In this document: positions 2,156-34,940 of the stretch, one piece after another
Layout: the number at the start of each line of letters is the position of its first letter
Position numbering within the stretch: the stretch's first letter is position 1
Assembly: GCA_902727985.1 (NCBI GenBank)
Contig: CACVAY010000047.1
Location: forward strand, 1-35,547
Length of the DNA: 35,547 nt
Reading direction: 5' to 3'
Source of the DNA: an uncultured Thiotrichaceae bacterium
GTDB lineage: Bacteria > Pseudomonadota > Gammaproteobacteria > Thiotrichales > Thiotrichaceae
The notes under the pieces: generated by a model
Database searches by the model: none
What the model was told of the DNA's origin: nothing
Seen by the model: only the letters and a program-made list of their open reading frames with translations
Translations under genes and position numbers: made by a program

Positions 2156-2207
2156 TTTCACAGGGGAGTTTGTCAGTCTTCACCTTCACTTAAAGGAATA
2201 AGTTCCT

Positions 2208-3074: not shown

Positions 3075-3088
3075 CCTTTAGGATTCCT

Positions 3089-4833: not shown

Positions 4834-6042
4834 TTACTTGCCGACGTTAAGCGCTGAACAGATACCACCTTCGAGCGGAATATTGTTGTTTTTGATATCT
4901 GGAGCATTGTTCTTGATTTCGAATGAGGTATACCAATTTTCAGCTTGTTGAGTAACTGATTGTTCTATATACCCCGGCTTTGAGGCATTCAGCCCCTTAC
5001 CTAGTATCAATGGTGCAGGATCAGTTTCTTTTACTAAACGACGACCTTTCGCTACACCCGTGACAATACGCATTCCCGTTGGAATCTGAAACTGGAGTGC
5101 ATAAACACCTGGCTCTGTTGTTTGCCAGACATAATGCCCTTTGCTACCATCTTCCAAGAGTGTTACTTTGTCGTTAGGGGAAACCATAAAACGAGTTATT
5201 CCTGGCACAACCTGGCGGCTACCGGCACAATAAAAATACCCCGAACCGGAGTACACCTTGCTATTGGTATCCTTAGGCTCCATGTAGGTGGATAGACGAG
5301 GTTTTGCAGGAGCTGTGGGAAGAATAACATTATTTAACGTCACGGCTGGGGCTTTTACATGCCCTGCCCCGCCTTTCTCTTCTTCTATGCTTTGGGTTTC
5401 TGGCGCGTCATCATCTGCCATGTTTGTGTTTGATACCATTCTCTTTTCTTGAGATGTATTCGGTTTTTGTACGATATCTGTTTTGCCATCATCATCATGC
5501 AGATCCGGCTTACCGTCCTTGTCTGAATCATGCAACATCAAGCTGTCAATAATGCCATCACCATTTTCATCAGGCATCTTTTTAATATCGGCATCAAAAA
5601 TATCATCTACCTTATCTTGATCAATATCTTGATAGCTAAGTTTTACTTCATGCGCATCAAGCAATTTATCACCGTCAGAATCGGTATCTAAATAGTTAGG
5701 TATGTTGTCCTTATCAAGGTCTTCACTTCCTTCTAATACAGTGGGGATAGTGTCTCCATCATCATCGAAGTCGACAACATCCAGACGACCATCGTTGTCG
5801 GTATCGAGTGGCGCATCGGGTGAACCTATTTCAACAAGGTCATTAATCCCATCACCATCAGTATCCGATAAATAGGGTGAGGATCCTAGCATATCCTCAA
5901 CACTATCAAGCACCCCATCTTTATCCCAGTCATCATCAGAATATGCAATATTGGCAAGCATAGAAAATGATATCGACAAGAGTAGAACAATACTGAGACG
6001 AGTGATTAAGGCGCTGTTCTTGGGAAAAGATAGATTCATCAT
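4834..6042 (-). CDS. Secreted protein with thrombospondin type 3-like calcium-binding repeats
   Basis: Predicted exported protein of 402 residues starting at the ATG at 6042 (a second ATG follows at 6039). The longer frame starts at a TTG at 6072 and only adds Lys/Asn residues. The N-terminus has a basic region and hydrophobic core (LITRLSIVLLLSISFSMLA) with likely cleavage after IAYS. Residues about 36-195 carry repeated Asp-rich loops: DKDGVLDSVED, DTDGDGINDLVE, DTDNDGRLDVVD, DTDSDGDKLLDAHE, DENGDGIIDS and DSDKDGKPDLHDDD. These match the D-x-D-x-D-G-x-x-D pattern of thrombospondin type 3/OmpA-type calcium-binding repeats. A disordered, acidic linker follows. The C-terminal domain of about 150 residues (from PRLSTYMEP) has only two Cys, in FYCAGS and GGICSAL, which could pair after export. 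I do not recognise that domain. Function is unknown; adhesion or envelope association is an inference. It converges on recN. Confidence 0.75.
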   Translation of the reverse strand: MMNLSFPKNSALITRLSIVLLLSISFSMLANIAYSDDDWDKDGVLDSVEDMLGSSPYLSDTDGDGINDLVEIGSPDAPLDTDNDGRLDVVDFDDDGDTIPTVLEGSEDLDKDNIPNYLDTDSDGDKLLDAHEVKLSYQDIDQDKVDDIFDADIKKMPDENGDGIIDSLMLHDSDKDGKPDLHDDDGKTDIVQKPNTSQEKRMVSNTNMADDDAPETQSIEEEKGGAGHVKAPAVTLNNVILPTAPAKPRLSTYMEPKDTNSKVYSGSGYFYCAGSRQVVPGITRFMVSPNDKVTLLEDGSKGHYVWQTTEPGVYALQFQIPTGMRIVTGVAKGRRLVKETDPAPLILGKGLNASKPGYIEQSVTQQAENWYTSFEIKNNAPDIKNNNIPLEGGICSALNVGK

Positions 6043-6332
6043 GTTTGGCTTATTTTTTTTATTCAGTTTCAAAGATATCTACGATCATTATTGCAAGGCA
6101 ACCCTTTCCAGCCAACAATGCTTGATCAGGTAAGTTCCTATTTATAAGCCCGATACGAACTACAAAAATATTTAATCATGCTAATAGATCCAGAGTTTTG
6201 ACACAAAAAAACTCCGATGAAACGCTGATTCGTAAACAGCTAAACACATGTGTTAAGGCTTCTGAGGCAGCTTTGTAAACTTTCTGGCCACTACTAAAAA
6301 ACTTTTCGTTTAGGGGGATAGCCTTCGATGAC

Positions 6333-16048: not shown

Positions 16049-16453
16049 TTAGCTTAATTTATTAATCAAGACACTCCGTTTTTTTAACAAAAACTTGGTC
16101 AAGAAATATGAAAAAACACCCAATATATCGGCAGCAATATCGGCCAATTCAAAACTGCGAAATTCTGTCATGCTCTGTAGCACCTCAATCATGCCACCAT
16201 AGAACACTAAAGGAACTCCCTTCCAAAACCATGAAGGTTTACGTGTTATCGCTAAATCCATTAGCATTGCAAAGCCAAAGAAAACAAGTACATGAAGCAA
16301 TTTATCATTCATATTTCCTAAAGCATACGAAGTCAAAGGCATGGTTGCCACATATACACCCAAGGTCATCAGAAACACAATTAAGAGACATGTACTTACT
16401 TTAAAAGCCCCCACTCCCCTCAGTTGTCGAATTGACAAAATGATTTTATGCAT
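16049..16453 (-). CDS. VanZ-like membrane protein
   Basis: Membrane protein of 134 residues with four predicted hydrophobic segments. The pattern NDKLLHVLVFFGFAMLMD followed later by YGGMIEVLQSM and RSFELADIAADILGVFSYF matches the VanZ-like family. The conserved H (HVLVFF), the E in MIEVLQ and the D in ADILG are in the usual places. Proteins of this family are linked to teicoplanin resistance in Gram-positives; in Gram-negatives their role is unclear, so no function is claimed. It starts 135 bp from uvrD, divergently, and lies about 100 bp upstream of the atp operon. Confidence 0.72.
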   Translation of the reverse strand: MHKIILSIRQLRGVGAFKVSTCLLIVFLMTLGVYVATMPLTSYALGNMNDKLLHVLVFFGFAMLMDLAITRKPSWFWKGVPLVFYGGMIEVLQSMTEFRSFELADIAADILGVFSYFLTKFLLKKRSVLINKLS

Positions 16454-18811: not shown

Positions 18812-18837
18812 AAAAAAGCCGCTTTCGCGGCTTTTTT
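18812..18837. terminator. Bidirectional terminator between uvrD and the PG-binding gene
   Basis: AAAAAAGCCGC-tttc-GCGGCTTTTTT is a perfect hairpin flanked by A and T runs, 45 bp past uvrD and 26 bp past the convergent gene ending at 18864. It can terminate both. Confidence 0.93.
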
Positions 18838-18863: not shown

Positions 18864-20276
18864 TTATTGGATACCTAACTCTTCAAGCACTTTGATAGTT
18901 AGCCCACCACGAGGAAGACCTTTGTCACTTTGATATGCATTAACAGCATTCAATGTACCACGGCCGATGTTGCCATCAACGGTACCATTATAGAAACCTG
19001 CATCCTTAAGTGCCTGCTGAATCTTCTTATTAAGATCTTTTGTCATATTTGTCTGACATAGAACACGACGCCACTCCAGTTTCTCACCAGCAATTTTCAC
19101 ACGTTTCTCAACCGTTTTAGTTTCAGCCGGAATTTTAGTACGATTGACTTCAGCTGCACTTACAACTTTTTCAACCTTAATTACTTTAGTTTCAGCAGCA
19201 ACTTTAACTTCCTCTACAGAAGCAGGCGTTTCAACAACGAGTCTCTTAATCTTCTGGAATCTTGCTGGAACCTCTTTCAAACAAACCTGCATCCCCGTGT
19301 AGGTGCCCTCTCCTTCACTATCAGAAGCTCTCCAATAGAATTGAGCATCAGAGACTTTCTCTTTAACTTTAACAATCGTTGTTTCAGCAGCAACCTTTTC
19401 GACTTCTTGTGTAGCATCACTAACAAGCTTCTTAACAGATACCGCTTTTGTTTCTGCTGGAACTTCCGAGTCTTCAATTTGTGCCTCTGTCTTCAACACA
19501 TTCTTGATTAATGTTTCATACTTAGGTGGAACATTTACCAAACACATGATTTCACCGGTCGTATTGTCAATGCGCTCTACAAGACCAGAACCTTTCTTCC
19601 ATACTGCTTTAGCTGGCTCAATCTCGATAGTCTCTTCAGACTTTTCATAGACCGCTGGAACCAACTTTTTAACACCGTAAGATGCTTTAATGGTAACGGT
19701 TTCTTCTGAATCTTCGAATTCGGCTGCTTTAACAATAATATTGGAGGATTCCGCCTTAACTTCTACTTCTTTGTCTTTCTCAGCAAATTGTGCTGGTGCG
19801 TAATATTCACGGAAACATTGTCCAGGAGTAACGGTATCGATATCAATACCGTTAGACTTAGCTGCAACCAATAACGTCGGACTTGCAGGTAGTGCGCGCT
19901 TACCTAAAGACGTTACCCATTCATTTCTCGCAGCTTCAACTTCAACTTGCTCTTCTTCAGTTCTGAATTTTGTCGGGATAACTTTCAATGTCGTATGTGC
20001 AGGACTAATTTCTACTTCAGTTTCTTCCGTGTCGAATGACGCAGGAATAATTTCGATTGTTTCTTGCTCTGGGTTTACCTCGATTTCTTCTGGTCGAGTT
20101 TCAAACTGTGCAGGAACAATAACCTTGGCATAGCATTCCCCAGGCTTAGCATCCGGCAGAGTATTAGTAGCATCTACAGGAGAACTGCTAGTAGATGCAT
20201 CCTCTGCATACGATTGCATTGCAACAGATATCGCCATTGTCAAAACTGCCACAGAGGCAATGCGTTTGTTATTCAT
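18864..20276 (-). CDS. Exported repeat protein with C-terminal peptidoglycan-binding domain
   Basis: Secreted protein of 470 residues. A signal peptide (MNNKRIASVAVLTMAISVAM, cleaved near SYA/ED) leads into about four modules of 80-105 residues. Each begins with Cys and a V-P-A-x-F-E core (CYAKVIVPAQFE, CFREYYAPAQFA, CLVNVPPKYE, CLKEVPARFQ). It continues with short units of about 20 residues with PA and EEVEV/IEIEP, and ends with a Trp (RNEW, KAVW, QFYW, KLEW). A final domain of about 55 residues, from KDLNKKIQQALKDAG to VNAYQSDKGLPRGGLTIKVLEELGIQ, is a PG_binding_1-type peptidoglycan-binding fold. I expect a periplasmic or envelope protein anchored to the wall; the repeat role is unknown. 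AGGAG lies just upstream of the ATG. The Lys/Glu-rich, Val-rich repeats are unlike the neighbours in composition. Confidence 0.8.
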   Translation of the reverse strand: MNNKRIASVAVLTMAISVAMQSYAEDASTSSSPVDATNTLPDAKPGECYAKVIVPAQFETRPEEIEVNPEQETIEIIPASFDTEETEVEISPAHTTLKVIPTKFRTEEEQVEVEAARNEWVTSLGKRALPASPTLLVAAKSNGIDIDTVTPGQCFREYYAPAQFAEKDKEVEVKAESSNIIVKAAEFEDSEETVTIKASYGVKKLVPAVYEKSEETIEIEPAKAVWKKGSGLVERIDNTTGEIMCLVNVPPKYETLIKNVLKTEAQIEDSEVPAETKAVSVKKLVSDATQEVEKVAAETTIVKVKEKVSDAQFYWRASDSEGEGTYTGMQVCLKEVPARFQKIKRLVVETPASVEEVKVAAETKVIKVEKVVSAAEVNRTKIPAETKTVEKRVKIAGEKLEWRRVLCQTNMTKDLNKKIQQALKDAGFYNGTVDGNIGRGTLNAVNAYQSDKGLPRGGLTIKVLEELGIQ

Positions 20277-20362: not shown

Positions 20363-20391
20363 ATTATACATATTGATAGGGCAAGGTAAAC
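20363..20391 (-). promoter_or_regulatory. Likely promoter of the PG-binding repeat gene
   Basis: On the minus strand, GTTTAC (20386-20391), a 17-bp spacer and a perfect TATAAT -10 (20363-20368) lie about 87 bp upstream of the ATG at 20276. The -10 is strong; the -35 is weak. Confidence 0.45.
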
Positions 20392-20499: not shown

Positions 20500-21939
20500 C
20501 TAAGTAGCCAAACTCATTCGAACGGCTTCTACACAGACCCCCATCAGTAAACCAGGAAAAATACCTAAGGCAAGCATTAACAACCCATTGATAGATAACA
20601 ATGATGTAAAACCTAAGTGCGCTTCCAAAGGTGCCTCATCTTTAGCCTTATCGAAGTACATATACTTGACAGCACGCAAATAATAAAACGCACCAATTAC
20701 AGACATAACAACAGCTACTATAGCCAACCATAGCAGGTTCGCCTCAAGAACCGCTTGTAAAACAGCCAGCTTCGCATAAAAACCGACCAAGGGTGGAATT
20801 CCTGCCATGGCGAACATGAATAACAACATCATAAACGCATACCAAGGATGACGATCATTAAGACCTTTAAGATCAGTTAGCTCTTCAGCTTCAAAGCCTT
20901 CACGACTAAGCAGGATAATAATAGCGAATCCCCCTAATGATGTAATAGCATAGGTAATTGCATAAAACATCGCCGCAGAATAACCTTGCTCATTGGCACT
21001 CAAGATTCCCATCAGGATAAACCCCATATGTGAAATCGTAGAATAAGCGAGCATCCTTTTGATATTGGTTTGGGCTATTGCCACGATATTACCAACAATT
21101 AATGACAACACCGCCAACAAGATCAGCATTTGCTGCCAACCAGCTGCACCAAACTCCATACCTTCAACCAGTAAACGTATCGTAATAGCAAAAACCGCAA
21201 GCTTTGGCGCTGTACCAATAAGCATAGTGACTGCCGTTGGTGCACCTTGGTATACATCAGGCACCCACATATGAAAAGGAACAGCGCCAAATTTAAACCC
21301 TAGGCCAGCAATAATGAAGGTTAAACCAAATAGCAATACAACATTCTGCATCACATTTTCATTCGCCACATAAGTAGCCACGCCATGTAAATCTATAGAG
21401 CCACTTAATCCATAAAGAATCGACATGCCGTAGAGTAAGAGACCTGAAGCAATTGCACCCAATACAAAATACTTCATTGCTGCTTCAGAAGCTCTGCCAT
21501 CATCTCGACGGAAAGCAACCAAAGCATATAAAGCCAGGGACATTAATTCTAAGCCAAGGTAGATCACCAACATGGTGTTCGCCGAAATCATAATCAACAT
21601 GCCAAGCGTCGCAAAAAGCCCTAGAGTATAAAACTCACCTTTGAACATAGAGCGCTTGCCGAGATAGTCCCGGGAATACACAAAGACCCCCATGATAATT
21701 ACCAGCACACTGATTTTCAGCAAACTTGCCATCTGATCTGCTACGAACATGCCATTGAAGGCTTCACTATTAGGCTCTGAAAGACGGGTAACAATAAGCA
21801 AAATCGTACTTATTAACACAACCTGTGCCATTACGTACGTCACAAATCGGTTTGATTTTTCAAGAAAAAGATCAAGCAACAACAAACCACAGGTTGCGGC
21901 TAGCAGGAAAATTTCGGGGGTAGCAACTGAATAATTCAT
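20500..21939 (-). CDS. nuoN: NADH-quinone oxidoreductase subunit N
   Basis: Antiporter-like membrane subunit in the proton-pumping arm of complex I. I start at the ATG at 21939 (479 residues), which has AGGAGAG upstream; the longer frame starts with TTG. About 14 membrane helices are expected for the family; GLELMSLALYALVAF, GFKFGAVPFHMWVPDVYQGAPT and LAYSTISHMGFILMG carry the conserved Glu, Lys and His. Last gene of the operon, 15 bp after nuoM. Confidence 0.97.
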   Translation of the reverse strand: MNYSVATPEIFLLAATCGLLLLDLFLEKSNRFVTYVMAQVVLISTILLIVTRLSEPNSEAFNGMFVADQMASLLKISVLVIIMGVFVYSRDYLGKRSMFKGEFYTLGLFATLGMLIMISANTMLVIYLGLELMSLALYALVAFRRDDGRASEAAMKYFVLGAIASGLLLYGMSILYGLSGSIDLHGVATYVANENVMQNVVLLFGLTFIIAGLGFKFGAVPFHMWVPDVYQGAPTAVTMLIGTAPKLAVFAITIRLLVEGMEFGAAGWQQMLILLAVLSLIVGNIVAIAQTNIKRMLAYSTISHMGFILMGILSANEQGYSAAMFYAITYAITSLGGFAIIILLSREGFEAEELTDLKGLNDRHPWYAFMMLLFMFAMAGIPPLVGFYAKLAVLQAVLEANLLWLAIVAVVMSVIGAFYYLRAVKYMYFDKAKDEAPLEAHLGFTSLLSINGLLMLALGIFPGLLMGVCVEAVRMSLAT

Positions 21940-21954
21940 CCTCAACTCTCCTGA

Positions 21955-23463
21955 TTAGTTCGGTAATTTAGACTGAGAAGCGTGATTGATAAGATGCTCA
22001 ATCGACACCCCCATTACATGGGTCAAAGGATCCGGCCACAGGCCGAGGAGCAATACAAAGAATGCCAGTACAGCAAGCATAAAAAACTCACGTTTATTTA
22101 CATCTTGAAGCAATGCAACTTCATCATTCGCAACACCACCAAAAATGGTGCGTTTCACCAACCACAGTGAATAAGCGGCACCAACAATTAAGGTAGTCGC
22201 TGCAAGGAAGGCAATCCAGAAACTGGCTTTAAAGCTGGCAAGAATAACCATGAATTCGCCTACAAAACCTGATGTACCGGGCAAGCCACTATTTGCCATC
22301 GCAAACAACACAAAGAACCCCGCAAAAATAGGCATTCTGTTTGCCACACCACCGTAGGCTGATATTTCTCGCGTATGCATTCTGTCATAAAGCACACCAA
22401 TCGAGAGGAACATCGCTCCAGAAATAAAGCCATGCGATACCATTTGCACCATGCCACCTTGCATCGCCAACACCGAGCCATCATAACTACCGGTATTCTT
22501 ATGAATAGCGAACATCAAGAAGAACCCCATGGTGACAAAGCCCATGTGAGCGATGGACGAATATGCAACAAGCTTCTTCATATCTTGTTGGACGAGCGCA
22601 ATAAATCCGATATAAACAATAGCTGTCAAAGACATTAGCATGATTAGCCACGTCAACTCTTCAGACGCATCAGGCACAATAGGCAATGAGAAACGCAAGA
22701 AGCCATAACCACCGATCTTCAACATGATTGCAGCAAGTATGATTGAGCCACCAGTAGGTGCTTCAACGTGCGCGTCAGGCAACCAGGTATGAACAGGCCA
22801 CATAGGGACTTTCACACCAAACGCCAAGAGAAATGATAGGAAAATCAGTATTTGCGCTGTCATCCCAATCTTCATGTGATGCATATCTGTAATCGCAAAG
22901 CTTCCACCTTGATTGTAAAGGTAGATCAGACTGATCAGCATGAAAACAGAACCTAAGAAGGTATAGAGGAAGAACTTGATCGTCGCATAAACACGATTCG
23001 CTCCACCCCAGACTCCAATAACAATAAACATTGGAATCAACATTGCTTCGAAGAATACGTAAAAGAGCATGGCATCTTGTGCAGCAAACACACCATTAAT
23101 GATGCCTTCCATAATAAGAAAGGCCGCCATGTACTGTGCGGGTTTCTTCTGAATAACTTCCCAACCCGCAATGACAATGATCATCGTAATAAAGGTATTC
23201 AGGAGAATCAAAGGCATAGACAGCCCATCGATACCAAGATGATAATGGATACCGAACGTTTGTATCCATAAACGTTTCTCTTCAAACTGCATAGCAGCTG
23301 TGGCTGCATCGAAACCTATCCATAATGGCAAACTCACCACAAAGGTAACGATAGAAACCACGAGAGCCATAGGTCGACACCAATGGTCACCAGCCATCAA
23401 AACCGCAATGCCGCCAACGATAGGTAACCAAATAAGTAGACTTAATAGTGCCCAATTATCCAT
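21955..23463 (-). CDS. nuoM: NADH-quinone oxidoreductase subunit M
   Basis: Second antiporter-like subunit of the membrane arm. The start is the ATG at 23463 (502 residues, MDNWALLSLLIWLP): an AGGAAT site sits eight bases upstream, and the longer frame begins at a TTG inside nuoL. Conserved features are FYVFFEAMLIPMFIVIGVWGG (Glu in the key helix), LAFGVKVPMWPVHTWLPDAHVEAPT and KKLVAYSSIAHMGFV. The gap to nuoL is 20 bp. Confidence 0.97.
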   Translation of the reverse strand: MDNWALLSLLIWLPIVGGIAVLMAGDHWCRPMALVVSIVTFVVSLPLWIGFDAATAAMQFEEKRLWIQTFGIHYHLGIDGLSMPLILLNTFITMIIVIAGWEVIQKKPAQYMAAFLIMEGIINGVFAAQDAMLFYVFFEAMLIPMFIVIGVWGGANRVYATIKFFLYTFLGSVFMLISLIYLYNQGGSFAITDMHHMKIGMTAQILIFLSFLLAFGVKVPMWPVHTWLPDAHVEAPTGGSIILAAIMLKIGGYGFLRFSLPIVPDASEELTWLIMLMSLTAIVYIGFIALVQQDMKKLVAYSSIAHMGFVTMGFFLMFAIHKNTGSYDGSVLAMQGGMVQMVSHGFISGAMFLSIGVLYDRMHTREISAYGGVANRMPIFAGFFVLFAMANSGLPGTSGFVGEFMVILASFKASFWIAFLAATTLIVGAAYSLWLVKRTIFGGVANDEVALLQDVNKREFFMLAVLAFFVLLLGLWPDPLTHVMGVSIEHLINHASQSKLPN

Positions 23464-23483
23464 AAATATGATTCCTAATAATC

Positions 23484-25481
23484 CTATGACGCACTTGTGC
23501 GATAAATAATCCAACTAATGAAAGCAAGAACACCTACGATCATTGAGAAAGCATAATGGTACATATAACCCGTTTGAATGCGTCTTACCGTGCCAGACAC
23601 TTTATTTACAAGCCATGCAGAACCGTTGACCAAAAGACCATCAATCAAGATTCGATCCCCTGCTTTCCATAAGACTTTGCCCAGAGACACAGCCCCACTT
23701 GCAAAAAACTTTTGATTAAAATCATCAACAAAATATTTGTTATCCAACAAGGTATGCAGCCAACGGAAACGTTTATAGAACCATGTGGCAATTTCAGGCC
23801 TACGCATATAAATAAACCAAGCAGAAACCAACCCCCCCATAGCCAACCAGAATGGAGGCATCATCAAACCATGCGTTATAAACCCAAATACACCGTGATA
23901 TGTCGCCTTCATTTCTGAGACCAGAGAGCCTTCCACGCCAACTCCAGCAATTGCCCCTTTAAAGAAGTCTCCGACTACCATTGGGTCTAACAGGTAACCT
24001 GCAAACACCGCTGGAATTGCCAAGGCTACAAGTGGCACCGTAACTACCCACGGTGATTCATGAAGGTGAGATTTTGTATGTTCATCCATGCGCTCTTCAC
24101 CATGAAACACGAGGAAAAACATGCGGAAACTATAAAACGCGGTAACAAAGACACCTAACAACACCATCCAGTAGGCAAATGTAGCCCCTGGAACATCCGA
24201 CATGTGAACCGCTTCAATAATGAGATCTTTTGAGAAGAAACCAGCAAATCCAGGGAAGCCAATCAAGGCCAAAGAGCCTATTAACGATGTCCAATAGGTA
24301 ATCGGCATATATTTCTTTAAGCCGCCCATCTTGCGAATGTCTTGCTCGTGATGCATCGCAATAATCACAGAGCCCGCTGCAAGGAACAATAAGGCTTTAA
24401 AGAATGCATGCGTCATCAAATGGAAGACTGCCGCCCCATAAGCTCCTGCTCCTAAAGCAACCGTCATATAACCCAATTGGGACAAAGTTGAATAGGCAAC
24501 AACCTTCTTAATATCATTCTGCACGATACCAATTAGGCCCATGAAGAAAGCTGTAATTGCACCAATCACCAAGACAAAACTCAATGCCGTAGTGCTGAGT
24601 TCATATAAAGGCGACATTCTTGCCACCATAAAGATACCTGCTGTAACCATGGTGGCGGCATGGATCAAGGCGGAGATTGGTGTCGGACCTTCCATTGAAT
24701 CAGGCAGCCAGACATGTAAAGGAACCTGGGCAGACTTTCCCATTGCCCCAACAAATAACAAAATACAGGTCACTGTCATGAGTGACCACTCGGTACTGCC
24801 AATGATATTGATTTTCGAATCAGCTAGTGCTGGCGCTTTATCAAAGACCTCTTGATAATCCATCGACCCGAAGTACATCAGTACCGCTGCAATACCTAAC
24901 AAGAATCCAAAGTCGCCTACACGATTCACCAGGAAGGCTTTCATATTGGCGTAAATAGCTGTATCACGCGTCGACCAGAAACCAATTAGTAGATACGACA
25001 CCAAACCCACAGCCTCCCAACCGAAGAACAGCTGCATGAAGTTATTCGACATCACCAGCATCAACATCGAGAAGGTAAATAATGAGATATAACTAAAGAA
25101 ACGCTGATAACTGTTGAATCCAGCTTGACTATCTTTCGGCCAATTATGCTCATCGTCAGACATATAGCCCATGGTGTAGACATGCACCATCAGCGACACG
25201 AATGTCACCACGACCATCATCATGGCCGTGAGATTGTCGATCATGAAACCGACATGGAACGAAATACCTTTTACCGCAGACCACGTGTAAAGGTTTTCAT
25301 TATACGTATTACCATCAAATACAATATGCTTAAGTACCACAAACGATAAGATGCATGAAATTGCAACACCCAGAATCGTAACAGTATGTGCGCCTTTTCT
25401 GCCTATTTTGGACCCAAAAAGACCCGCAATAATGGCACCTATAAGAGGAGATAGCGGGATTAAAAGATAGATTAATTCCAT
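23484..25481 (-). CDS. nuoL: NADH-quinone oxidoreductase subunit L
   Basis: Largest antiporter-like subunit, at the distal end of the membrane arm, with the long lateral helix. The 665 residues match the family (613-670). QLFFGWEAVGLVSYLLIGFW, MGKSAQVPLHVWLPDSMEGPTP and KKVVAYSTLSQLGYM carry the conserved Glu, Lys and His of the pumping channel. The C-terminal stretch after residue about 560 (RRPEIATWFYKRFRWLHTLL, NKYFVDDFNQKFF) is the lateral helix region. It starts two bases after the nuoK stop. Confidence 0.98.
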   Translation of the reverse strand: MELIYLLIPLSPLIGAIIAGLFGSKIGRKGAHTVTILGVAISCILSFVVLKHIVFDGNTYNENLYTWSAVKGISFHVGFMIDNLTAMMMVVVTFVSLMVHVYTMGYMSDDEHNWPKDSQAGFNSYQRFFSYISLFTFSMLMLVMSNNFMQLFFGWEAVGLVSYLLIGFWSTRDTAIYANMKAFLVNRVGDFGFLLGIAAVLMYFGSMDYQEVFDKAPALADSKINIIGSTEWSLMTVTCILLFVGAMGKSAQVPLHVWLPDSMEGPTPISALIHAATMVTAGIFMVARMSPLYELSTTALSFVLVIGAITAFFMGLIGIVQNDIKKVVAYSTLSQLGYMTVALGAGAYGAAVFHLMTHAFFKALLFLAAGSVIIAMHHEQDIRKMGGLKKYMPITYWTSLIGSLALIGFPGFAGFFSKDLIIEAVHMSDVPGATFAYWMVLLGVFVTAFYSFRMFFLVFHGEERMDEHTKSHLHESPWVVTVPLVALAIPAVFAGYLLDPMVVGDFFKGAIAGVGVEGSLVSEMKATYHGVFGFITHGLMMPPFWLAMGGLVSAWFIYMRRPEIATWFYKRFRWLHTLLDNKYFVDDFNQKFFASGAVSLGKVLWKAGDRILIDGLLVNGSAWLVNKVSGTVRRIQTGYMYHYAFSMIVGVLAFISWIIYRTSAS

Positions 25482-25483
25482 AG

Positions 25484-25789
25484 TTACCCCTTCATCTCAT
25501 CAAGTTCTTCAACATTAATCGTGCCACGATTTCGAAATAACACCACCAAGATAGCCAAACCGATTGCTGCTTCTGCTGCTGCCACCGTCAAAATAAAGAA
25601 TACAAACACCTGCCCTGCCATATCTTGCAAATAATGAGAAAAGGAAATGAAGTTAATATTGACCGCTAGTAGCATTAGCTCAATACACATCAATATAATC
25701 AAAACATTTTTACGATTAAGAAATATACCGGCAATGCTAATCGCAAATAGCAAGCCCCCAACGATCAAAAAATGCGAGAGTGGTATCAT
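25484..25789 (-). CDS. nuoK: NADH-quinone oxidoreductase subunit K
   Basis: Small membrane subunit of complex I with three helices. The 101 residues match the family (100 in E. coli). The start [15 protein letters not shown] aligns with the E. coli start. The conserved Glu in [13 protein letters not shown] (helix 2) and Glu in [16 protein letters not shown] (helix 3) form part of the proton path. It overlaps nothing but lies within two bases of both neighbours. Confidence 0.97.
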
Positions 25790-25790
25790 T

Positions 25791-26396
25791 CTAATCGCCT
25801 CCAGTACTTTCAGACTTCATCTTTACAATACGAACACGATCAGTGCTCTTCACTTTCACCTGATCACTAGGGTTTTGAGATTTGGTCGAAGGTGGACGCT
25901 TTCTATGGGTCAGCGTAATGGCCGCAATAATCGCTACCAGAAGAATCACCGCCGCAATTTCAAACGGATAAACATAGTAGGTATAAAGCTGTTCACCTAG
26001 CACTTCCGTATTGTTGTAATCAGCGGGCTGTGGCGTTGGTTTGGGAATATGCAAACTCTTATTGGTCAACACCATAACCATTTCCGCTGCAACAACAACT
26101 GCAACTAACAATCCTACAGGCAAATATTTGATGAAACCTTCGCGCATGACATCAATGTTTATATCTAACATCATGATGACAAAGAGGAACAGCACCATGA
26201 CCGCACCTACATACACCAAGATCAAAACAACACCTAGAAACTCTGCCTCAAGCATCACCCACAAGGCGGCACTATTAAAGAATGCCAAGATAAGAAACAA
26301 CGCGGCATAAACAGGATTTCTTACCGTGACCATACTCACTGCAGAAGCTAGTAAGACAGCAGACAATAAGTAAAATATGATTTGTTCAAAACCCAT
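25791..26396 (-). CDS. nuoJ: NADH-quinone oxidoreductase subunit J
   Basis: Membrane subunit of complex I next to NuoK, NuoA and NuoN. The 201 residues begin with [23 protein letters not shown] and include [28 protein letters not shown], the conserved helix whose twisting couples quinone reduction to pumping. A charged C-terminal tail ([15 protein letters not shown]) follows the last helix. It begins 21 bp after nuoI. Confidence 0.96.
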
Positions 26397-26417
26397 AGGT
26401 TTAACTATCTCTCTATA

Positions 26418-26909
26418 CTATCGGTAAGGGGCATCGGCAGCTTTATCCTGAGCCACCATCGTTTCATGTTTATCACCAAAGGCCAGCAATCGGTCTTTGG
26501 TTACAATATTCTCACCACGTTCTTCAAAGTGATACTCAAAGATTCTGGTTTCGACAATCGCATCAACGGGGCATGCTTCTTCACAAAAGCCGCAGTAAAT
26601 ACACTTAAACATATCGATATCGTAACGGGTGGTACGACGTGTTCCATCCTCACGTTCTTCAAGCTCAATATTAATGGCTAATGCAGGACAAACTGCCTCA
26701 CATAATTTACAGGCTATACAACGCTCTTCTCCATTGGGATAACGGCGCAGGGCATGATGTCCACGAAAACGCGGTGATATAGGAGTCTTTTCTTCAGGAT
26801 ATTGAATCGTAACTTTGGGAGAGAATAATCTCCGCCCTGTTACGCTCAAGCCTTTTAGCAATTCAAATAGCGTGAAAGATTTGATCCAATGTCTTAATGT
26901 ACTCGTCAT
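26418..26909 (-). CDS. nuoI: NADH-quinone oxidoreductase subunit I (two 4Fe-4S clusters)
   Basis: Ferredoxin-like subunit passing electrons through clusters N6a and N6b towards N2. I start at the ATG at 26909 (163 residues), which GAGGG precedes by seven bases; the longer frame merely reads into nuoH. Ligands are C64-x2-C67-x2-C70-x3-C74 and C103-x2-C106-x2-C109-x3-C113, both followed by Pro, as in 8Fe ferredoxins. The first ATG (26915) is too close to the ribosome binding site to be preferred. Confidence 0.97.
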
Positions 26910-26919
26910 CTCCATTCCC

Positions 26920-27987
26920 TCATGACAACCATGGCTGCCAGCCCAATGCAATCGCAATACCCAAACCGAAAATCCACACAAGTGTTACTGGAATCAATAT
27001 TTTCCAACCTAAGCGCATAATTTGGTCGTAACGATAACGAGGAAACGTTGCGCGAAACCACAAGTATAGGAAAATGAAGAATGCTGTTTTAAGTAACAAC
27101 CAATGAATACCATTACCTAACAACACACCAATAAAGGGTAGCTCGGTTAAGAAATCAACGCCTTGGAAAGGTGATAACCAGCCACCAAAGAATAAAATAG
27201 CGGCCAAGGCTGAAATAAGTAGCATATTCGCGTATTCAGCCAAGAAGAATAAGGCAAAAGCCATACCCGAATACTCAACATGGAAACCCGCTACAATCTC
27301 AGATTCACCTTCCGCCACATCAAACGGTGCACGGTTAGTTTCAGCAACACCTGAAATAAAGTAAACCAGGAACAAGCCAATCAACGGCCAAACAAACCAG
27401 TGAGTAATTCCTCCTGACTGGGCTTCAACGATCCCCGAAAGATTCATGGTTCCCGCTGCCATCAAAACACCTACCAGCGCAAAACCCATCGCGATTTCAT
27501 AAGAAACCACCTGTGCACCAGCACGCATGGCACTCAAAATGGCATATTTCGAATTTGATGCCCAACCTGCCAATATAATTCCGAAGACATCCAAGGAAGT
27601 AATTGCCAAAATAAATAACAAGCCAACATTAATATCGGCCAATACCATCTGCGCTTGAAACGGCATGACTGACCAGGCAACAAAAGCGGGCGCCAAGGCT
27701 AATACGGGCGCAAGGTAGAAAACAAAGCGACTGGATTTATTAGGAAGAATAACTTCCTTAAACATCAATTTGACAACATCGGCAATCGGCTGCAACCAAC
27801 CTTTAGGGCCTACCCTGTTGGGCCCCATCCGCACTTGCATATAGCCAATAACTTTACGCTCGGCATAAGTGGTGTATGCAACCGCTAAAATGAGTGGGAG
27901 TAATATGGCTACGATCTTAATAAGAATGACCAATACTGTCTGCACCCATTCAGGAAATGCGTTCCAAATTGATAAAACAAAATCCAT
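26920..27987 (-). CDS. nuoH: NADH-quinone oxidoreductase subunit H
   Basis: Membrane subunit at the junction of the arms, forming part of the quinone chamber. The ATG at 27987 (355 residues) overlaps the nuoG stop as TAATG; the longer frame starts at a TTG inside nuo[34 protein letters not shown] and [27 protein letters not shown] are the conserved quinone-channel loops, with their charged residues intact. About eight membrane helices are expected for the family. Confidence 0.98.
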
Positions 27988-30353
27988 TAGCAATCACCAC
28001 TTATTTCAAGAGTACCAAACGAAGCTCCTAAAATGCTGGATTTGTTCGTTGCAGCAAGTAACGATACGCATCCCTTAGGCACCTGATCATCTGACACAAG
28101 CGTCATAACCGCTCTGGCATCACCCTGTTTCACAGTCACCGCTTGGCACTGATCTAGCCCCATCGCTTGTATATCCTGTGAATTCATACTCACCGAATCA
28201 CGTTCTGTCGCATAGGTTTTTTGTAGGGATGTTGCCCGCTGGGTAACAGCATCAATAGAGAAGGCATGAAGATAGCTAATTTTTTGAAGTACGTTTGCCG
28301 GATTTGACAGTACTTCAGGTTTATCAAAGATTTCTGAACCTGAAAACTGGCGGGTATTATCGGGTTTACTCTCTACATTCGCATTGAATTCATCCAGAAC
28401 ATCCTGACTGCTCATGTACTCAAAACCATTAACACCCAGAACATTACCCATAACACGTAGCACTTTCCAACCAGGCTTCGAATCACCCCGTTGTTTAACA
28501 GCTGCACGATAACTTTGCTGTTTTCCTTCCGCGTTGATAAACGTTCCTGATGATTCCGAAGCGGTGGCGACAGGTAACAAAACATCAGCAACAGCTCGTA
28601 GTTTATCGCTAGCAAATGCGGTAAATGCAATCACCTTGGCATGATGCATCGCCCCTTCTGCAATCTGTGGGTTGGCACAGTCAAATTGTGGATCGACGTT
28701 ATAGAGAACATATGTTTTGGTCGCAGACATCAACATATCTGAGGTATGCCGGCCAATATCACCGGCATTTTCTCCACCAGCAACACGATGAGGAACCATC
28801 CCCGTTAACCATGCGCCAGCGGTATTTGCAGCTTCTGGCAAATACCCCAGTTTAGCACCAGAGCTCTTGGCCAGCACCGCAGCTAAGGCTCTCAAGGTCG
28901 CATAATGAGGGAAATTAACGACTTGGCTACCTAATACAACAAGTGACTTATCGCTGTTTTTTAATGCCTGACAAAGGCTTTCAAGAGAGTCATCTTTTTC
29001 ATTACTCAGTGCTTCAAGCTCTGAGGGTAAATCACCACAATAGCTAGCAATACTCGCCAAAGTATTCACCAGTCCAGCAGGGTCACGAATGAACTCACCA
29101 GAAACATCATAGTTATGCGTTAATGCATAAGGGTTAAGGAAAAAGACCTTCGCTCCTTTTGTTACTGCCTTACGTACCCGATGATTAATCATGGGTTGAT
29201 CACGACGAACATCAGAACCAATAAACAGGAATACTTTTTGTTCTTCTAAGCCTTCAATATCAGTGCCTAACCAAGGAAATTGTGGTTCCTTGCCCTGATC
29301 AGAAAAATCGATTTGGCGTAAGCGATGATCCAAATTGCTAATACCCTTGTTACGCATCAGCTTTTGTAATAAATATAACTCTTCAGTAGAAGAACTCGCT
29401 GAAGCCAACACACCCACTTCGTTAGGATCTGATGCTTCAAGCATTTCGCCAGCAGCTTCAAGAGCCGCATCCCATGAAACCGTATTCCATGAGCCATCAC
29501 TATTCTTGATCATGGGCTGAGTTTGACGGTCTTGGGCGTTCAAACCTTCATAACTGAATCTGTCGCGGTCTGAAATCCAACATTCATTGATTGCATCATT
29601 TTCTTGAGGTACAACCCGCATCACTTCATCTTGGAAAGAATGCAGAAACACATTCGAACCTACACAGTCATGAGAAGCGATAGAAGGTGCTTGAGCAATC
29701 TCCCACGCACGGGCTTTATAACGTGAAGGCTTTGCAGTTAAAGCACCAACGGGACAGATATCAATGACATTTCCTGATAATTCAGAGTCGAGACTCTTTT
29801 CAATATACGTCCCAATCTCCATCGACTCACTTCGACCTGTTGCACCCAACTCACGCATGCCTGCAATTTCTTCACCAAAACGAACACAACGTGTACATTG
29901 AATGCACCGTGTCATTTCAGTTTCAACGAGTGGCCCTATATCTTTGTCAGCAACAACACGCTTAATCTCAACATATGCCGAAGAATGATCACCATGGGAG
30001 ACAGAAATATCTTGCAACTCGCACTCACCCCCCTGATCGCAAATCGGGCAATCCAAGGGGTGATTGATGAGCAAGAATTCCATAATGGATTTCTGTGATT
30101 CAGCGGCTTTCACAGAATTGGTTAGTACTTTCATACCAGGCATAACTGGCGTTGCACACGCTGGCATTGGCTTAGGGGCTTTTTCGACTTCCACCAAACA
30201 CATTCTGCAATTAGCTGAGATTGAGAGCTTTTCGTGGTAACAGAAACGAGGAATATTAATACCCGCCCTATCTGCTACTTCAATAATCATCTTACCAGGT
30301 TCGGCTTGCAATTCTTGGCCATTGATTTCGATGGTAATTAGATCATCACTCAT
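27987..30353 (-). CDS. nuoG: NADH-quinone oxidoreductase subunit G
   Basis: Largest peripheral-arm subunit, relaying electrons through several Fe-S clusters. The 788 residues hold an N-terminal 2Fe-2S ferredoxin domain (Cys 38, 49, 52, 66), a His-Cys3 4Fe-4S site (His98, Cys102, 105, 111) and another 4Fe-4S site starting C150-x2-C153-x2-C156 with a fourth Cys in DICPVG. The rest is a molybdopterin-oxidoreductase-like domain that has lost the cofactor. It is shorter than E. coli NuoG (about 908). It overlaps nuoF by the four bases ATGA. Confidence 0.97.
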
Positions 30354-31633
30354 GATTTACCTCCGACCATACTGCGACCATATTTGACGTAATATTCAAA
30401 CTCATCGCGATAATGCTCAATGAAACTCCAAACGGGCATTGCTGCCGCCTCACCTAATGCACAGATGGTGCGACCTTCAATTTTATGTGCCACATCAACT
30501 AATTTTTCAATATCAGCCGTGGTTCCTTGGCCATTCACAATTCGCGTTAACATCCGATAGAGCCAACCAGTGCCTTCTCGACAGGGAGTACATTGACCAC
30601 AAGATTCTGAAAAATAAAAGCGAGATATGCGACGTAGTAACTGCACCATATCCGTCGAATCATCGATAACCATGACAGCGCCCGAACCTAAATAAGACCC
30701 CGCATGTTGGATGGAATCATAATCCATGGTGAGCTCCATCATCTTGTCTCCAGGCAAGACTGGAACTGATGACCCGCCAGGAATAACGGCTTTGAGTTTT
30801 CTACCTTTCCATACACCACCTGCCATCTCTAGCAAATCGGCAAAAGGTGTTCCCATTGGAATTTCAAAATTCCCAGGGTTCTCTAAATGACCAGACATAG
30901 AAAACAGTTTTTCACCGCCAGAGCCTTCTATGCCCTGCTCCATAAACCACTCACCACCACGAGTCAGAATCGTTGGGATGGAAGCGAGTGTTTCTGTGTT
31001 ATTGATTGTTGTTGGGCGACCATAAAGACCAAAGTTTGCAGGAAATGGGGGTTTAAAACGTGGCTGACCTTTTTTACCCTCTAAGGACTCAAGCAAGGCT
31101 GTCTCTTCACCACAAATATAAGCACCAGCACCCAACGAACCATAGAGATCGAAATCGATTCCAGTACCCTTGATATCTTTACCCAGATAACCAGCATCAT
31201 AGGCTTCTTTTAGCGCCTCTTCGAAATGAATGAAGGGTTCATCCATAAACTCACCGCGCAGATAGTTATACCCAACCGTAGCACCGATGGAATAACCAGC
31301 AATTGCCATACCTTCAATCAAAGCATGTGGATTAAAGCGTAAAATATCACGATCTTTACAGGTACCTGGCTCAGATTCATCTGAATTACAAACGATATAC
31401 TTTTGACCTGGCATTTTACGTGGCATAAAGCTCCACTTAAGACCTGTAGGGAAACCTGCTCCTCCACGTCCTCGTAAACCAGAACTTTTCACCTCTTCAA
31501 TGATATCGTCGGGAGACGTTTCTTCATCGAGAATTTTTTGCCATGCCTGATAACCACCGACCTTCAAGTAGCTTTCAAGGGTATGAGCTTTATCTCCGAA
31601 TTGTTTGGTTGTAAAGCAAACCTGATCAACCAT
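30350..31633 (-). CDS. nuoF: NADH-quinone oxidoreductase subunit F (NADH and FMN site)
   Basis: Entry point of electrons: binds NADH, FMN and cluster N3. Starting at ATG 31633 gives 427 residues; the frame could extend one codon to a TTG. The glycine-rich [13 protein letters not shown] is at 55-67 and the FMN-binding [15 protein letters not shown] follows. The 4Fe-4S ligands are C345, C348, C351 and C391. The start lies just downstream of the nuoE stop. Confidence 0.98.
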
Positions 31634-31637
31634 CAAC

Positions 31638-32144
31638 TCACTCCAGATTATCTAAAATCTCATCAACTTTTTCAGTGGTGAGATCAGTGTAATAAACATG
31701 ATTGACTTGCATCATCGGCGCACTACTACAGGCAGCAAGACATTCTTCTTCCTGTTTGATGAAAAACTTGCGGTCAGGTGTTGATTCACCCGTTTTCACA
31801 CCCAGTTTCGTTTCAATATGCTCAACAATTTCGTCCGAACCACGCAACATGCAAGACACATTGGTACAAACTGAAACGGAGTACTTAGCCGCAGCTTTCT
31901 CATCCGTTTCATACATCGAATAGAAACTAGCAACTTCATAAACCGCAATGTTATCGAGATCAAGATAGTCAGCTACCGCATCCATCTTTTCAATCGACAA
32001 ATAATGATCTTCATGCATCACCGCGCGCAATGCCGCTAATAATGCAGAACGTTTCTGTTCCGGGGGATATTTTGTTAACCAATGATCAATGTCTTCACGC
32101 TCGTAAGTTGAGAGCAAATCACTGGGTCTTGATAGCGTCGTCAT
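31638..32144 (-). CDS. nuoE: NADH-quinone oxidoreductase subunit E (2Fe-2S)
   Basis: Thioredoxin-like peripheral subunit carrying cluster N1a beside NuoF. The 168 residues match the family. The four ligands are C93, C98, C135 and C139 in the pattern C-x4-C...C-x3-C. The N-terminal helical domain includes [15 protein letters not shown] and VASFYSMY. Its ATG overlaps the nuoD stop in a TAATG. Confidence 0.97.
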
Positions 32145-33397
32145 TATCGGTCTACCTCACCAAATACAATGTCTTGTGTACCAATAATGGTTACCACATC
32201 TGCCAACATATGACCTCTCGCCATTTCATCAATTGACGATAAATGCACAAAACCAGGAGCACGTAACTTCACACGATAGGGTTTGTTCGCACCATCGGAA
32301 ACCAGATAACAACCAAACTCACCTTTAGGATGCTCAACGGCGGAATACACCTGCCCTTCAGGTAAGGTATAACCTTCAGTCGCGAGTTTGAAATGTTGAA
32401 TAAGCGATTCCATACCTGATTTCATATCAGTACGATTTGGTGGAGCAACTGCGCTGTCATCTAACATCACAGGCCCAGGGGTTGCTCTTAGCCAATCAAC
32501 ACACTGTTTAATGATTCGATTGGACTGACGCATTTCCTCAACACGCACTAAGTAACGATCGTAACAGTCACCTTCCACACCAACAGGTATATCAAAGTCA
32601 ACTTTATCGTAAGCTGCATAGGGTTGCTTTTTACGTAAATCCCATTCAATGCCTGAACCTCTAAGCATTGGACCAGAAAAGCCAAGTTGCTTAGCTCGTT
32701 CTGGAGTCACTACGCCAACACCAACTAAACGCTGTTTCCAAATTCGGTTATCTGTCAATAATGTTTCATATTCATCAACGCAGGCTGGGAAACGCCGTGT
32801 GAAATCTTCAATAAAGTCCAATACGGAACCCGACCGGGTTTCATTGAGTTTATTGACATCCTGCTTACTCTTCCAACGTGACTCCTCATAAAGCGGCATG
32901 CTATCTGGTAAGTCACGATACACACCACCTGGACGGTAGTACGTTGCATGTAAACGAGCACCAGACACTGCCTCGTATACATCCATTAAATCTTCACGTT
33001 CACGAAAGGCATAAAGGAACATCGTCATTGCGCCAACGTCCAAACCGTGAGCACCGATCCACATTAAATGATTTAAGATTCGGGTAATTTCATCGAACAT
33101 GGTTCGGATGTATTGCGCTCGAATAGGTGCTTCGATTCCCATCAATTGCTCTATTGCACGAACATAGGCATGTTCATTACACATCATCGAGACATAATCG
33201 AGACGATCCATATAACCAATACTTTGGTTGTAGGGTTTGGATTCGGCTAGCTTTTCAGTGCCACGATGCAATAAACCAATGTGTGGATCTGCTCGCTCTA
33301 TAACCTCTCCATCCATTTCTAGAACAAGACGTAATACGCCATGCGCTGCCGGATGAGCAGGGCCAAAATTCAAAGTGAAATTACGAATATCAGGCAT
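32144..33397 (-). CDS. nuoD: NADH-quinone oxidoreductase subunit D
   Basis: Peripheral subunit that with NuoB forms the quinone reduction site. The 417 residues match the free-standing NuoD of non-enteric bacteria. The N-terminal [21 protein letters not shown] holds the conserved His of the quinone pocket, and [12 protein letters not shown] and the C-terminal [14 protein letters not shown] are family signatures. Separate nuoC and nuoD contrasts with the fused nuoCD of E. coli. The ATG overlaps the nuoC stop. Confidence 0.98.
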
Positions 33398-34107
33398 TAA
33401 TCATCACCCTCAATCGGAGAAGAAATTGAATCATTTTCACGAATCACTCTTGGCACTAAAACTCGAGGCTCAATCGTTACAGGCTCATAGACAACCCGCT
33501 CTTCCTCTTCGTCATAGCGCATTTCAACATGCCCAACCAATGGAAAATCTTTTCTAAATGGATGTCCAACAAAGCCATAATCCGTAAGGATACGACGTAA
33601 ATCTGGGTGCCCAGAAAAAACAATACCAAATAGATCAAATGCTTCGCGTTCAAACCAATTAGCAGACGACCATACTTCAACAACAGAGTCGATAACCGGC
33701 ACATCATTATCACTACAGTAAGCACGGACACGAATACGATGATTGTTTTCAACTGATAATACATGATAAATAACGGCAAAACGCTCACCATCGTATTCTT
33801 CATACTCAGGAGCATCTTCAAAATTAAACCACTCGGAACCCGTTTGTTTTACGCCACGACTAAAGCCAGATCCTGATGCCTGTGTCTCCCATTCCGTACT
33901 ACCAAAAGACAGATAATCAATTCCCGACAAATCAACTAACTCATCACACAAAGTCGTATCATCATTAATAAGAAAATAAGATACCGCAAGAATATCTTCA
34001 GCTTTGATATTCAGCGTTAGCTCACCGTACGCAATTTCTGTAGAAATCAGCTTGTCGTTGAGCTTACCTTGGATATAAGTCTCTAAATGTTGCAACGATT
34101 CAGTCAT
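33397..34107 (-). CDS. nuoC: NADH-quinone oxidoreductase subunit C
   Basis: Peripheral connecting subunit (30-kDa subunit homologue) of 236 residues. The diagnostic stretch is [43 protein letters not shown], containing the 30-kDa family signature (E-R-E-x-x-D-L-x-G). Both ends are less conserved: the N-terminal region of about 60 residues is acidic. It begins six bases after nuoB. Confidence 0.97.
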
Positions 34108-34113
34108 TAATGA

Positions 34114-34593
34114 TTAGCCTCGTGCAATGGTATTCGTATTACGAATTTTATTTTGTAATTGAATAATGCCATATAACAATGCTTCAGCTGTCGGAGGACA
34201 GCCTGGCACATAGATATCTACCGGCACAATACGATCACAACCTCTAACCACAGAGTAGGAATAATGGTAATAACCTCCGCCATTGGCGCATGATCCCATC
34301 GAGATCACCCAACGAGGCTCAGCCATTTGGTCATAAACTTTACGTAGCGCAGGAGCCATCTTATTCGTTAATGTCCCAGCAACAATCATGACATCAGATT
34401 GACGAGGGCTGGGACGGAAAACGATACCGAAACGGTCAAGATCATAGCGAGAAGCACCCGCGTGCATCATTTCAACGGCACAGCAGGCTAAACCAAAAGT
34501 AACGGGCCATAACGAACCAGTGCGCGCCCAATTAATCAACTTATCAGCAGAAGTCGTTACAAAACCTTCCTTAAGAACACCCTCTATTCCCAT
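34114..34593 (-). CDS. nuoB: NADH-quinone oxidoreductase subunit B (cluster N2)
   Basis: Carries cluster N2, which reduces quinone. ATG 34593 gives 159 residues and lies inside nuoA (10-bp overlap); the longer frame starts at GTG 34614 with no family support. The N2 ligands are C37, C38, C102 and C132, including the tandem Cys pair in [22 protein letters not shown] closes the domain. Translational coupling with nuoA is likely. Confidence 0.98.
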
Positions 34594-34940
34594 TCTAACG
34601 CACCCTTTTTCCACTCATAGATAAAACCCACGATAAGAATAAGAAGAAATATTGCCATCGAGATCAAGCCAAACATGCCAATTTCATCAAGCACAATCGC
34701 CCACGGAAAAAGAAACGCAATTTCAAGATCAAAAATAATAAAGAGAATGGCAACGAGATAATATCTCACATCAAACTTAATACGTGCATCCTCAAAAGCT
34801 TCGAATCCACATTCAAAAGGGGCATCTTTTTGTGCGTATGCTTTTCTAGGGCCCAGCAACATACCAAGCACGAGCAACACCACTGCCAAACCAACGGCAA
34901 CTCCCATAAAGATAAGAATCGGCAGATAGGCCTCAACCAT
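34584..34940 (-). CDS. nuoA: NADH-quinone oxidoreductase subunit A
   Basis: Small three-helix membrane subunit, first gene of the operon. The 118 residues match the family. The loop YECGFE-type segment ([21 protein letters not shown]) holds the conserved Cys of the quinone-site loop, and the later [19 protein letters not shown] contains the conserved Asp-Glu membrane pair. AGGGAG lies five bases before the ATG. The upstream AT-rich region carries its likely promoter. Confidence 0.97.

Follow-up and report, generated by a model that had tools for sequence, protein, structure and literature searches.

A putative wall-binding repeat protein of a Thiotrichaceae bacterium and its proposed fold as a long, repeat-paired beta-hairpin

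The repeat gene, its product and its neighbours

The window analysed here, i.e. the whole stretch of 35,547 nucleotides from an uncultured Thiotrichaceae bacterium (contig CACVAY010000047.1), carries on its minus strand, at 18864-20276, a gene with an ATG start and a TAA stop encoding a 470 aa protein that consists of a signal peptide, four modules of 72-74 residues (each with three repeats of 23 residues) and, at the C-terminus, a PG_binding_1 domain (Table 1). The gene lies behind the nuo (complex I) genes, with ~220 bp separating it from a nuoN-like gene upstream on the same strand, and a convergent uvrD-like helicase gene meets it across a stem-loop. A terminator scan of the region listed none, this stem-loop included, and the promoter-like TTTACC-16-TATAAT site is weak because the region contains 7 such sites compared to 4.5 +- 1.9 in shuffled sequences.

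Table 1 Features of the repeat-protein gene and its borders (window coordinates).
Feature	Position	Strand	Remark
Signal peptide, residues 1-24	20205..20276	-	signal peptidase I type site, judged by eye
Module 1, residues 48-121, C48...W120	19914..20135	-	three 23-residue repeats, acidic A type
Linker, residues 122-153	19818..19913	-	predicted short helix 133-141; putative joint between two ribbons
Module 2, residues 154-227, C154...W226	19596..19817	-	three repeats, A type
Putative hairpin tip, residues 228-244	19545..19595	-	conserved, adjoins tip Cys 245
Module 3, residues 245-316, C245...W315	19329..19544	-	three repeats, basic B type
Linker, residues 317-331	19284..19328	-	putative joint facing the 122-153 linker
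Module 4, residues 332-403, C332...W402	19068..19283	-	three repeats, B type
PG_binding_1 region, residues 409-470	18867..19052	-	right after C407, putative open hairpin end
Promoter-like TTTACC-16-TATAAT	20363..20390	-	~87 nt ahead of the start codon; weak
Stem-loop with A and T tracts	18812..18837		terminator-like in both directions; by eye

The nuo region beside the repeat gene spans positions 20500-34940. Among the 80 relatives compared (see below), nuoL/M/N-like genes were found in the examined flanks of 14, while the neighbours of others included tpiA-secG-like genes, ABC transporter-like genes and more, all named by reading. In three Sulfurovum records (L084, L092, L107), the gene is located just before nuoA/nuoB-like genes with one gene in between. 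The repeat gene and the nuo cluster may be linked recurrently, or their proximity may be due to chance. A fixed operon partner was rejected, as the neighbours differ between clades, and the repeat gene behaves as a stand-alone gene. Two further minus-strand genes of the window were recorded: a 412-residue open reading frame (4834-6072) with no Pfam match at E <= 0.001, and a VanZ-like small protein (16049-16453) between the ATP synthase genes and the helicase gene, which scored 26.6 bits against a Pfam cut-off of 30.1 and thus stays below it. A search of the same genome identified no second repeat protein, only matches to the wall-binding domain.

The preliminary description of the locus, made from the sequence alone, had proposed a modular repeat protein with Cys...Trp modules, and this was borne out. 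BLOSUM autocorrelation peaked at a lag of 23 residues (z = 9.7; value 0.40 compared to a best of -0.13 over lags 5-109 in 300 shuffles), so that the sub-repeat length, put at ~20 residues in that description, has to be corrected to 23. The 12 repeats of the window protein scored 17.9-32.2 bits against a 23-residue profile built from its own family, window protein included. As the best single unit per shuffle averaged 7.9 bits and reached a maximum of 23.8 bits (200 shuffles), it is the periodic array of the window protein and not any single unit that exceeds chance. One module comprises three 23-residue repeats followed by a truncated short strand that carries the Trp; all four modules open with Cys and close with Trp plus one residue. 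The opening motif, described before as VPAxFE in every module, was found in module 1 (VPAQFE) and was looser in modules 2 to 4 (APAQFA, VPPKYE and VPARFQ), with a family consensus of about PAx[YF]. Similarly, a Cys does stand at the start of each module, but a fifth one, C407, downstream of module 4 had been overlooked. All five Cys (C48, C154, C245, C332, C407) and the four Trp (W120, W226, W315, W402) were computed as invariant in 78/78 aligned proteins, window protein included, so the pattern is indeed kept in homologues.

The C-terminal domain, predicted earlier to bind the wall, matches PG_binding_1 (PF01471) with 35.7 bits against a Pfam cut-off of 23 (E 9.8e-9), and the family was detected in 78/78 aligned proteins at E <= 0.1 and in 150/171 relatives by our own profile, which argues for a wall-binding function of this end. 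A well-characterised domain was also looked for in the repeat part, and none was found in Pfam, NCBIfam or PDB sequences: no family reached its curated cut-off on the repeats (window protein, Pfam and NCBIfam; seven distant relatives, Pfam only) and no PDB sequence gave a convincing match. Weak or odd hits among the relatives included Pfam CEP76-C2 in 15/78 (best E 0.0024), NCBIfam NF047862 in 2/78 (best E 1.2e-5) and others, many of them in single or few members. Our literature searches returned nothing on the repeat family in the parts of the sources that they covered, and the passages retrieved from PMC11976967, on cable bacteria fibres, contain none on such a protein. Judged by these sequence comparisons, the repeat domain is not in the family libraries searched, and only the wall-binding end is already described.

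Relatives and the equality of the two halves

A scan of named genomes reported 340 relatives, 80 of which were available for comparison. They came from Thiotrichaceae (Leucothrix, Cocleimonas and others; homologues occur in Leucothrix pacifica and Cocleimonas flava), Granulosicoccaceae and other Gammaproteobacteria, with further relatives in records titled Sulfurovum, Campylobacterales and Desulfobulbaceae; many stem from metagenome-assembled genomes (MAGs), and some record titles look wrong, e.g. an ‘Aquificaceae’ record at 57% identity. Repeat matches were obtained in 46/369 sampled genomes of the class (E <= 1e-8) and in 29/398 sampled genomes of the phylum (E <= 1e-6). Many distant relatives are two-module proteins, with an A-like followed by a B-like module, with or without the wall-binding domain. 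Two short relatives (L022, 187 aa; L024, 155 aa) have no evident signal peptide and no Cys at the start or tip, and keep a WKKGHG...ERID-like tip motif. Four Thiotrichaceae two-module paralogues (L028-L031) have a lipoprotein-like start and long low-complexity stretches.

Viral contigs yielded 18 candidate stretches with a single-protein query and 108 with alignment A2 as query, none of which was confirmed; plasmids searched with the P0001 and L027 proteins and phages searched with the L027 protein only gave no match, and the PHROGs matches listed were endolysin families only. A phage or plasmid origin was rejected on the basis of the viral contig, plasmid and phage searches.

The main alignment (A3) consisted of the window protein and 77/80 relatives, leaving out L034 and L057 (both truncated) as well as L035; A4 and A5 comprised 43/80 and 74/80 relatives, and an earlier search had supplied the 11 and 7 relatives behind A1 and A2, respectively. 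For counts over the family, 171 proteins were parsed into repeats under an entry rule of at least 4 repeats with two in a row, by which single-arm proteins are excluded. A further 56 loci contributed no separate protein to this set, many being the same genes fetched twice and others partial or degenerate. Cys and arm counts refer to 163 proteins (171 minus 6 truncated and minus 2 without a parse into halves), and all family counts are sequences, not independent events.

The two halves of the protein differ in character. Across 102 four-module proteins, the mean net charge of the repeats was -7.6 in the first half and +10.4 in the second; the second half carried the higher net charge in 100/102 of these proteins, but only in 44/63 two-module proteins. 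Their repeat numbers, by contrast, were computed as equal in 161/163 two-armed relatives, with values of 2:2, 3:3, 4:4, 6:6 and 8:8, four-module proteins being counted as 6:6 and four 4:3 parses being set to 4:4 from a Cys spacing of 98. After clustering at 50% identity, the arms were equal in 35/36, compared to an average of 11.3 and a maximum of 23 in 20,000 shuffles. The two unequal cases were L128 (10:6) and L165 (4:6, with an in-frame TGA), and L189 is 4:4 in its open frame. At L128, two neighbouring repeat genes lie on the minus strand (1932-3236 and 3457-4218), one 4:4 and the other expanded to 10:6, which is the most evident departure from equal arms. At L165 (genome G597), two equal-scoring copies are located on opposite strands of one contig, both with the in-frame TGA and a shortened module 2; the locus is duplicated and perhaps decayed.

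The equal-arm rule is limited to two-armed proteins, since four short proteins (L126, L199, L200, L201) have a single three-repeat arm and no second arm. CxxC pairs stand on either side of their lone arm, and this version of the repeat may bind metal or be bridged between chains.

Among the 63 two-module proteins, the first half was more A-like than the second in 55, suggesting that in most of the family the arm types predate the length changes and that both arms changed length together. The A/B order was absent in 8/63, and in 12/63 the second half was not B-like by absolute score. All 8 exceptions to the order (the two L128 genes plus six short proteins of the 3:3 type) come from genomes that do not belong to the class, and in these a recent duplication could be an alternative source of equal halves.

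Covariation between the arms and predicted structure

Pairing between repeats was computed by covariation with a reduced alphabet, sequence weighting and average-product correction, and the effective number of sequences was small (43-63; 27 for the 4:4 set). In the 102 four-module proteins, the antiparallel arrangement (repeat r of arm A with repeat 7-r of arm B) ranked 1st of 720 and the parallel one 622nd, while in the two-module 4:4 set (n=35) they ranked 2nd and 17th of 24. The signal of the four-module set fell on the anti-diagonal p+p' 26-31, i.e. on the 12-residue strand; the 4:4 set was noisier, with sum 31 absent and other sums such as 15 standing out too. At the level of residues, the five best computed antiparallel registers were contiguous with either alphabet for modules M2:M3 (i+j 469-473, best 472) and M1:M4 (450-454, best 453), and no such run of five was found in the other four module pairs or among parallel registers. 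Single parallel offsets of homologous positions appeared at 106 (M1:M2) and at 87 (M3:M4), the latter with a z of 4.4 that is nearly equal to the 4.5-4.6 of the two registers in the full alphabet, and looser clusters (M3:M4 antiparallel 645-650; M2:M4 parallel 170-176 or 201-209) reached z up to 2.7. On bootstrapping, 472 was best in 60/60 and 450-454 in 59/60 replicates, compared to at most 28/60 for the commonest register in any control pair. Both registers were present in the most distant 70 sequences; the closest 32 relatives (Neff 7) recovered 453 for M1:M4 but not the M2:M3 register (top 496).

A continuous register predicts that the 7-residue strands couple one repeat along, at p+p' near 5-6, and peaks were found at 4 and 6 in both sets, with short-strand block means of 15.6 (four-module) and 23.2 (4:4) compared to -4.9 to 4.5 at three other offsets. 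This test was not fully blind, as three four-module couplings had already been seen and only the 4:4 set was a fresh test. In that set, two offsets, each on one repeat pair, exceeded the short-strand peaks (72.8 and 88.8), so that the short-strand coupling of the 4:4 set alone may agree with a continuous register but is not decisive.

Of the top 40 couplings, 9 lay on the registers compared to 0.7 expected, most of the 40 lying elsewhere, and in general the strongest couplings contained 9 to 18 times more on-register pairs than expected; in both cases the data used for the count had also served to choose the registers. E211-K262, E220-K252 and R105-E349 are charge pairs. Aside from the covariation, residues of opposite charge faced each other across the arms most often, over the family, at exactly 472 (1st of 77) and 453 (1st of 81); in the window protein alone this charge complementarity is weak (23rd of 77 and 7th of 81, respectively). 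Overall, the modules probably do not run in series; the covariation suggests that M1 pairs with M4 and M2 with M3, antiparallel and in one continuous two-stranded register.

AlphaFold2 (AF2) modelled the whole protein with a pLDDT of 70.0 and a pTM of 0.34, and residues 150-320 with 89.6 and 0.35. Strands of 7 and 12 residues alternate in the prediction, in line with the extended beta structure proposed earlier. No good match was found among solved structures (best Foldseek E 9.7e-4 with a TM of 0.19; best Z 2.8), and many of the nearest solved shapes to the 150-320 model were long hairpins of ring assemblies, a resemblance that appears to be one of shape only and weak. In the alignment to a cytolysin pore, 47 model residues spanning 2 to 169 were matched to a contiguous 47-residue stretch (rmsd 5.3-5.4). 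The two chain ends of the model are read as lying side by side, as a hairpin requires, the hairpin in this predicted model being deduced from the aligned ranges.

The positions of the Cys and Trp residues fit the same registers. These place W226 opposite L246, W120 opposite L333, W315 opposite E157 and W402 opposite K51, so each Trp end strand comes to stand opposite a Cys start strand. The sum for C48 and C407 (455) is two off 453, and that for C154 and C332 (486) exceeds by two to four the sums of the covarying joint pairs R156-Y326 and Y158-Y326 (482-484); given the register uncertainty, both pairs would be near enough for a bridge. The first and last Cys are both kept in 155/163 relatives (156 with the L189 frame corrected). 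The tip Cys is absent in 5 relatives, all of which keep both end Cys, and the last Cys is absent in 6, in all of which an extra Cys sits just before the first. In L165 the last Cys lies beyond its stop, L198 adds an N-terminal Cys to the other three, the number of Cys in the tip region ranges from 0 to 3 across relatives, and both joint Cys are present in 101/101 four-module proteins. We infer from these patterns that disulfides may link C48 to C407 at the open end and C154 to C332 at the joint, with C245 free or locally paired at the tip. The disulfide staples suggested in the preliminary description stay plausible, though in a different sense, as the Cys would be brought together by the chain folding back. 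Heme binding, also suggested there for these residues, was rejected because none of the five Cys stands in a CxxCH motif.

A proposed wall-bound hairpin and its relation to known systems

We propose that the exported protein folds as one giant antiparallel beta-hairpin of repeats, in which the chain would run out along modules 1 and 2 (acidic arm), turn at residues 228-244 (tip) and come back along modules 3 and 4 (basic arm). The 12-residue strand of repeat r in arm one would lie beside that of repeat 7-r in arm two, with the 7-residue strands continuing the register, and the two linkers would form a joint half-way along the hairpin. As each module-start Cys strand faces a module-end Trp strand, Cys and Trp would mark the four ribbon ends, with C48 meeting C407 at the open end and C154 meeting C332 at the joint in two disulfides, and C245 free at the tip. 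With modules 1 and 4 and modules 2 and 3 paired antiparallel, both chain ends would lie together, which speaks against the earlier picture of four modules in a row spanning the periplasm. The wall-binding domain would then hang from the open end, and the rod would project from the peptidoglycan or lie along it. A beta strand rises 3.3 A per residue; straight arms would measure ~24 nm per module pair, hence the actual molecule must be bent, run along the wall or self-assemble. A bare two-stranded ribbon of such length is unlikely to stay single, and side-by-side self-association of ribbons would be expected.

The folded-back, repeat-paired architecture is, in our judgement, very probable on account of the covariation, the arm equality and the Cys losses, each of which has its exceptions. 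Judging by export, the wall-binding domain and the rod shape, the protein most likely serves as a strut, spacer or tether of the envelope, and we infer a peptidoglycan-anchored, disulfide-stapled beta-rod acting as spacer or tether and perhaps self-assembling; this function is proposed tentatively, at somewhat less than an even chance. For the full explanation, an exported giant antiparallel hairpin that is stapled, bound to the wall and serves as structural spacer, tether or strut, we lean slightly in favour.

Ribbons lying side by side could also close into a wall-anchored beta-barrel tube or sheet serving as conduit or collar and not as a solid strut. This would agree with the hairpins of oligomeric barrels among many of the nearest solved shapes and with the outer ribbon edges, which have no consistent partner in the covariation maps. 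We consider it unlikely, however, as these shapes match only weakly (Z below 3), perhaps through no more than a long hairpin, both strand faces of the window protein are similarly rich in charged residues, and no partner gene is kept across clades. About as improbable is a domain-swapped antiparallel dimer, in which arm A would pair with arm B of a partner and the Cys bridges would join two chains. Covariation cannot separate intra- from intermolecular pairing, and the single-arm relatives would need pairing between chains, but the length of the tip does not vary (75 sequences align over 171 columns without a gap), a constancy in favour of a simple turn, and a hairpin seems to be present already in the AF2 model of the monomer.

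A serial rod, with four independent beta modules in a row and the lone Cys of each linking neighbouring molecules, would suit the modular sequence with its linkers, the low pTM that leaves the arrangement open in the full model, and the four relatives with one arm only; it was rejected as highly improbable given the antiparallel M2:M3 and M1:M4 registers, the equal arms in 161/163 and the retention of both end Cys where the tip Cys is absent. A beta-meander, with each 23-residue repeat as its own small hairpin in a single-layer sheet, is compatible with the alternating 7/12 strands of the AF2 secondary structure taken alone, and was rejected as the least probable arrangement of all because the four-module set showed no clear coupling at the p+p' that local hairpins, inside one repeat or joining adjacent ones, would give.

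The proposed hairpin matters in several respects. Repeat proteins usually stack neighbouring repeats, whereas in this protein the last repeat seems to be the partner of the first. Any repeat gained or lost by one arm would then have to be matched in the other, and relatives with 2, 3, 4, 6 and 8 repeats per arm suggest such joint gain and loss. The hairpin also gives the Cys/Trp pattern a simple meaning as ribbon ends and predicts specific disulfides, and a wall-anchored rod of evolvable length would bear on how envelope spacing is set. The repeat domain occurs in genomes titled as Pseudomonadota, Campylobacterota and Desulfobacterota, many of them MAGs. A bolder and rather doubtful idea is that of a widespread envelope class of equal-arm, Cys-stapled, in-register hairpins, fixed to the wall at the open end, that join edge to edge into a wall-anchored tube or sheet with a reach set by the repeat number. 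If true, the paired lengthening of both arms would be a molecular ruler of that spacing.

Compared to known systems, the closest likeness is found at the C-terminus. The PG_binding_1 proteins SleB (N-terminal domain, 6tci) and SltB3 (5ao8) share the fold of the C-terminal ~60 residues (Z 9.9 and 9.4, respectively), but this covers the last 13% of the window protein only, in which no hydrolase domain was found. HxsA, the His-Xaa-Ser repeat protein (TIGR03979), has the C-terminal region in common, with 78/78 members matching at E <= 0.01; however, the window protein scores 41 bits against a cut-off of 121.65, over residues 385-470 only, and falls outside that family. The phage phi29 collar and tail (6qz9) and the lysenin, aerolysin and cytolysin stems resemble it in their long two-stranded ribbon shape, but with weak scores and no sequence match, and no 23-residue repeats or wall-binding domain were noted in them; for the beta-pore-forming toxins (aerolysin, lysenin), only weak shape matches were obtained (Z below 3), with nothing in them to suggest a toxin.

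Among envelope proteins, Lpp is a coiled coil and OmpA a barrel. Like these and Pal, the window protein would combine a wall-binding part with an elongated or membrane-held part, which differs from theirs in being a repeat beta-ribbon with no outer-membrane part seen. The window protein has no lipobox Cys, nor any Cys before residue 48, and thus does not belong to the Lpp/Pal type, while a lipoprotein-like N-terminus (LxxC-like) was counted in 38/171 relatives with a loose pattern that includes false hits, and some relatives combine such an N-terminus with the wall-binding domain. G5/E and OspA were not among the fold-search matches listed, an absence that does not exclude kinship. The OspA single-layer sheet and the G5/E stalk of SasG are likewise extended, Glu/Lys-rich beta structures without a large core, but these are built from local strands or domains in series, whereas in the window protein it would be arms distant in sequence that pair.
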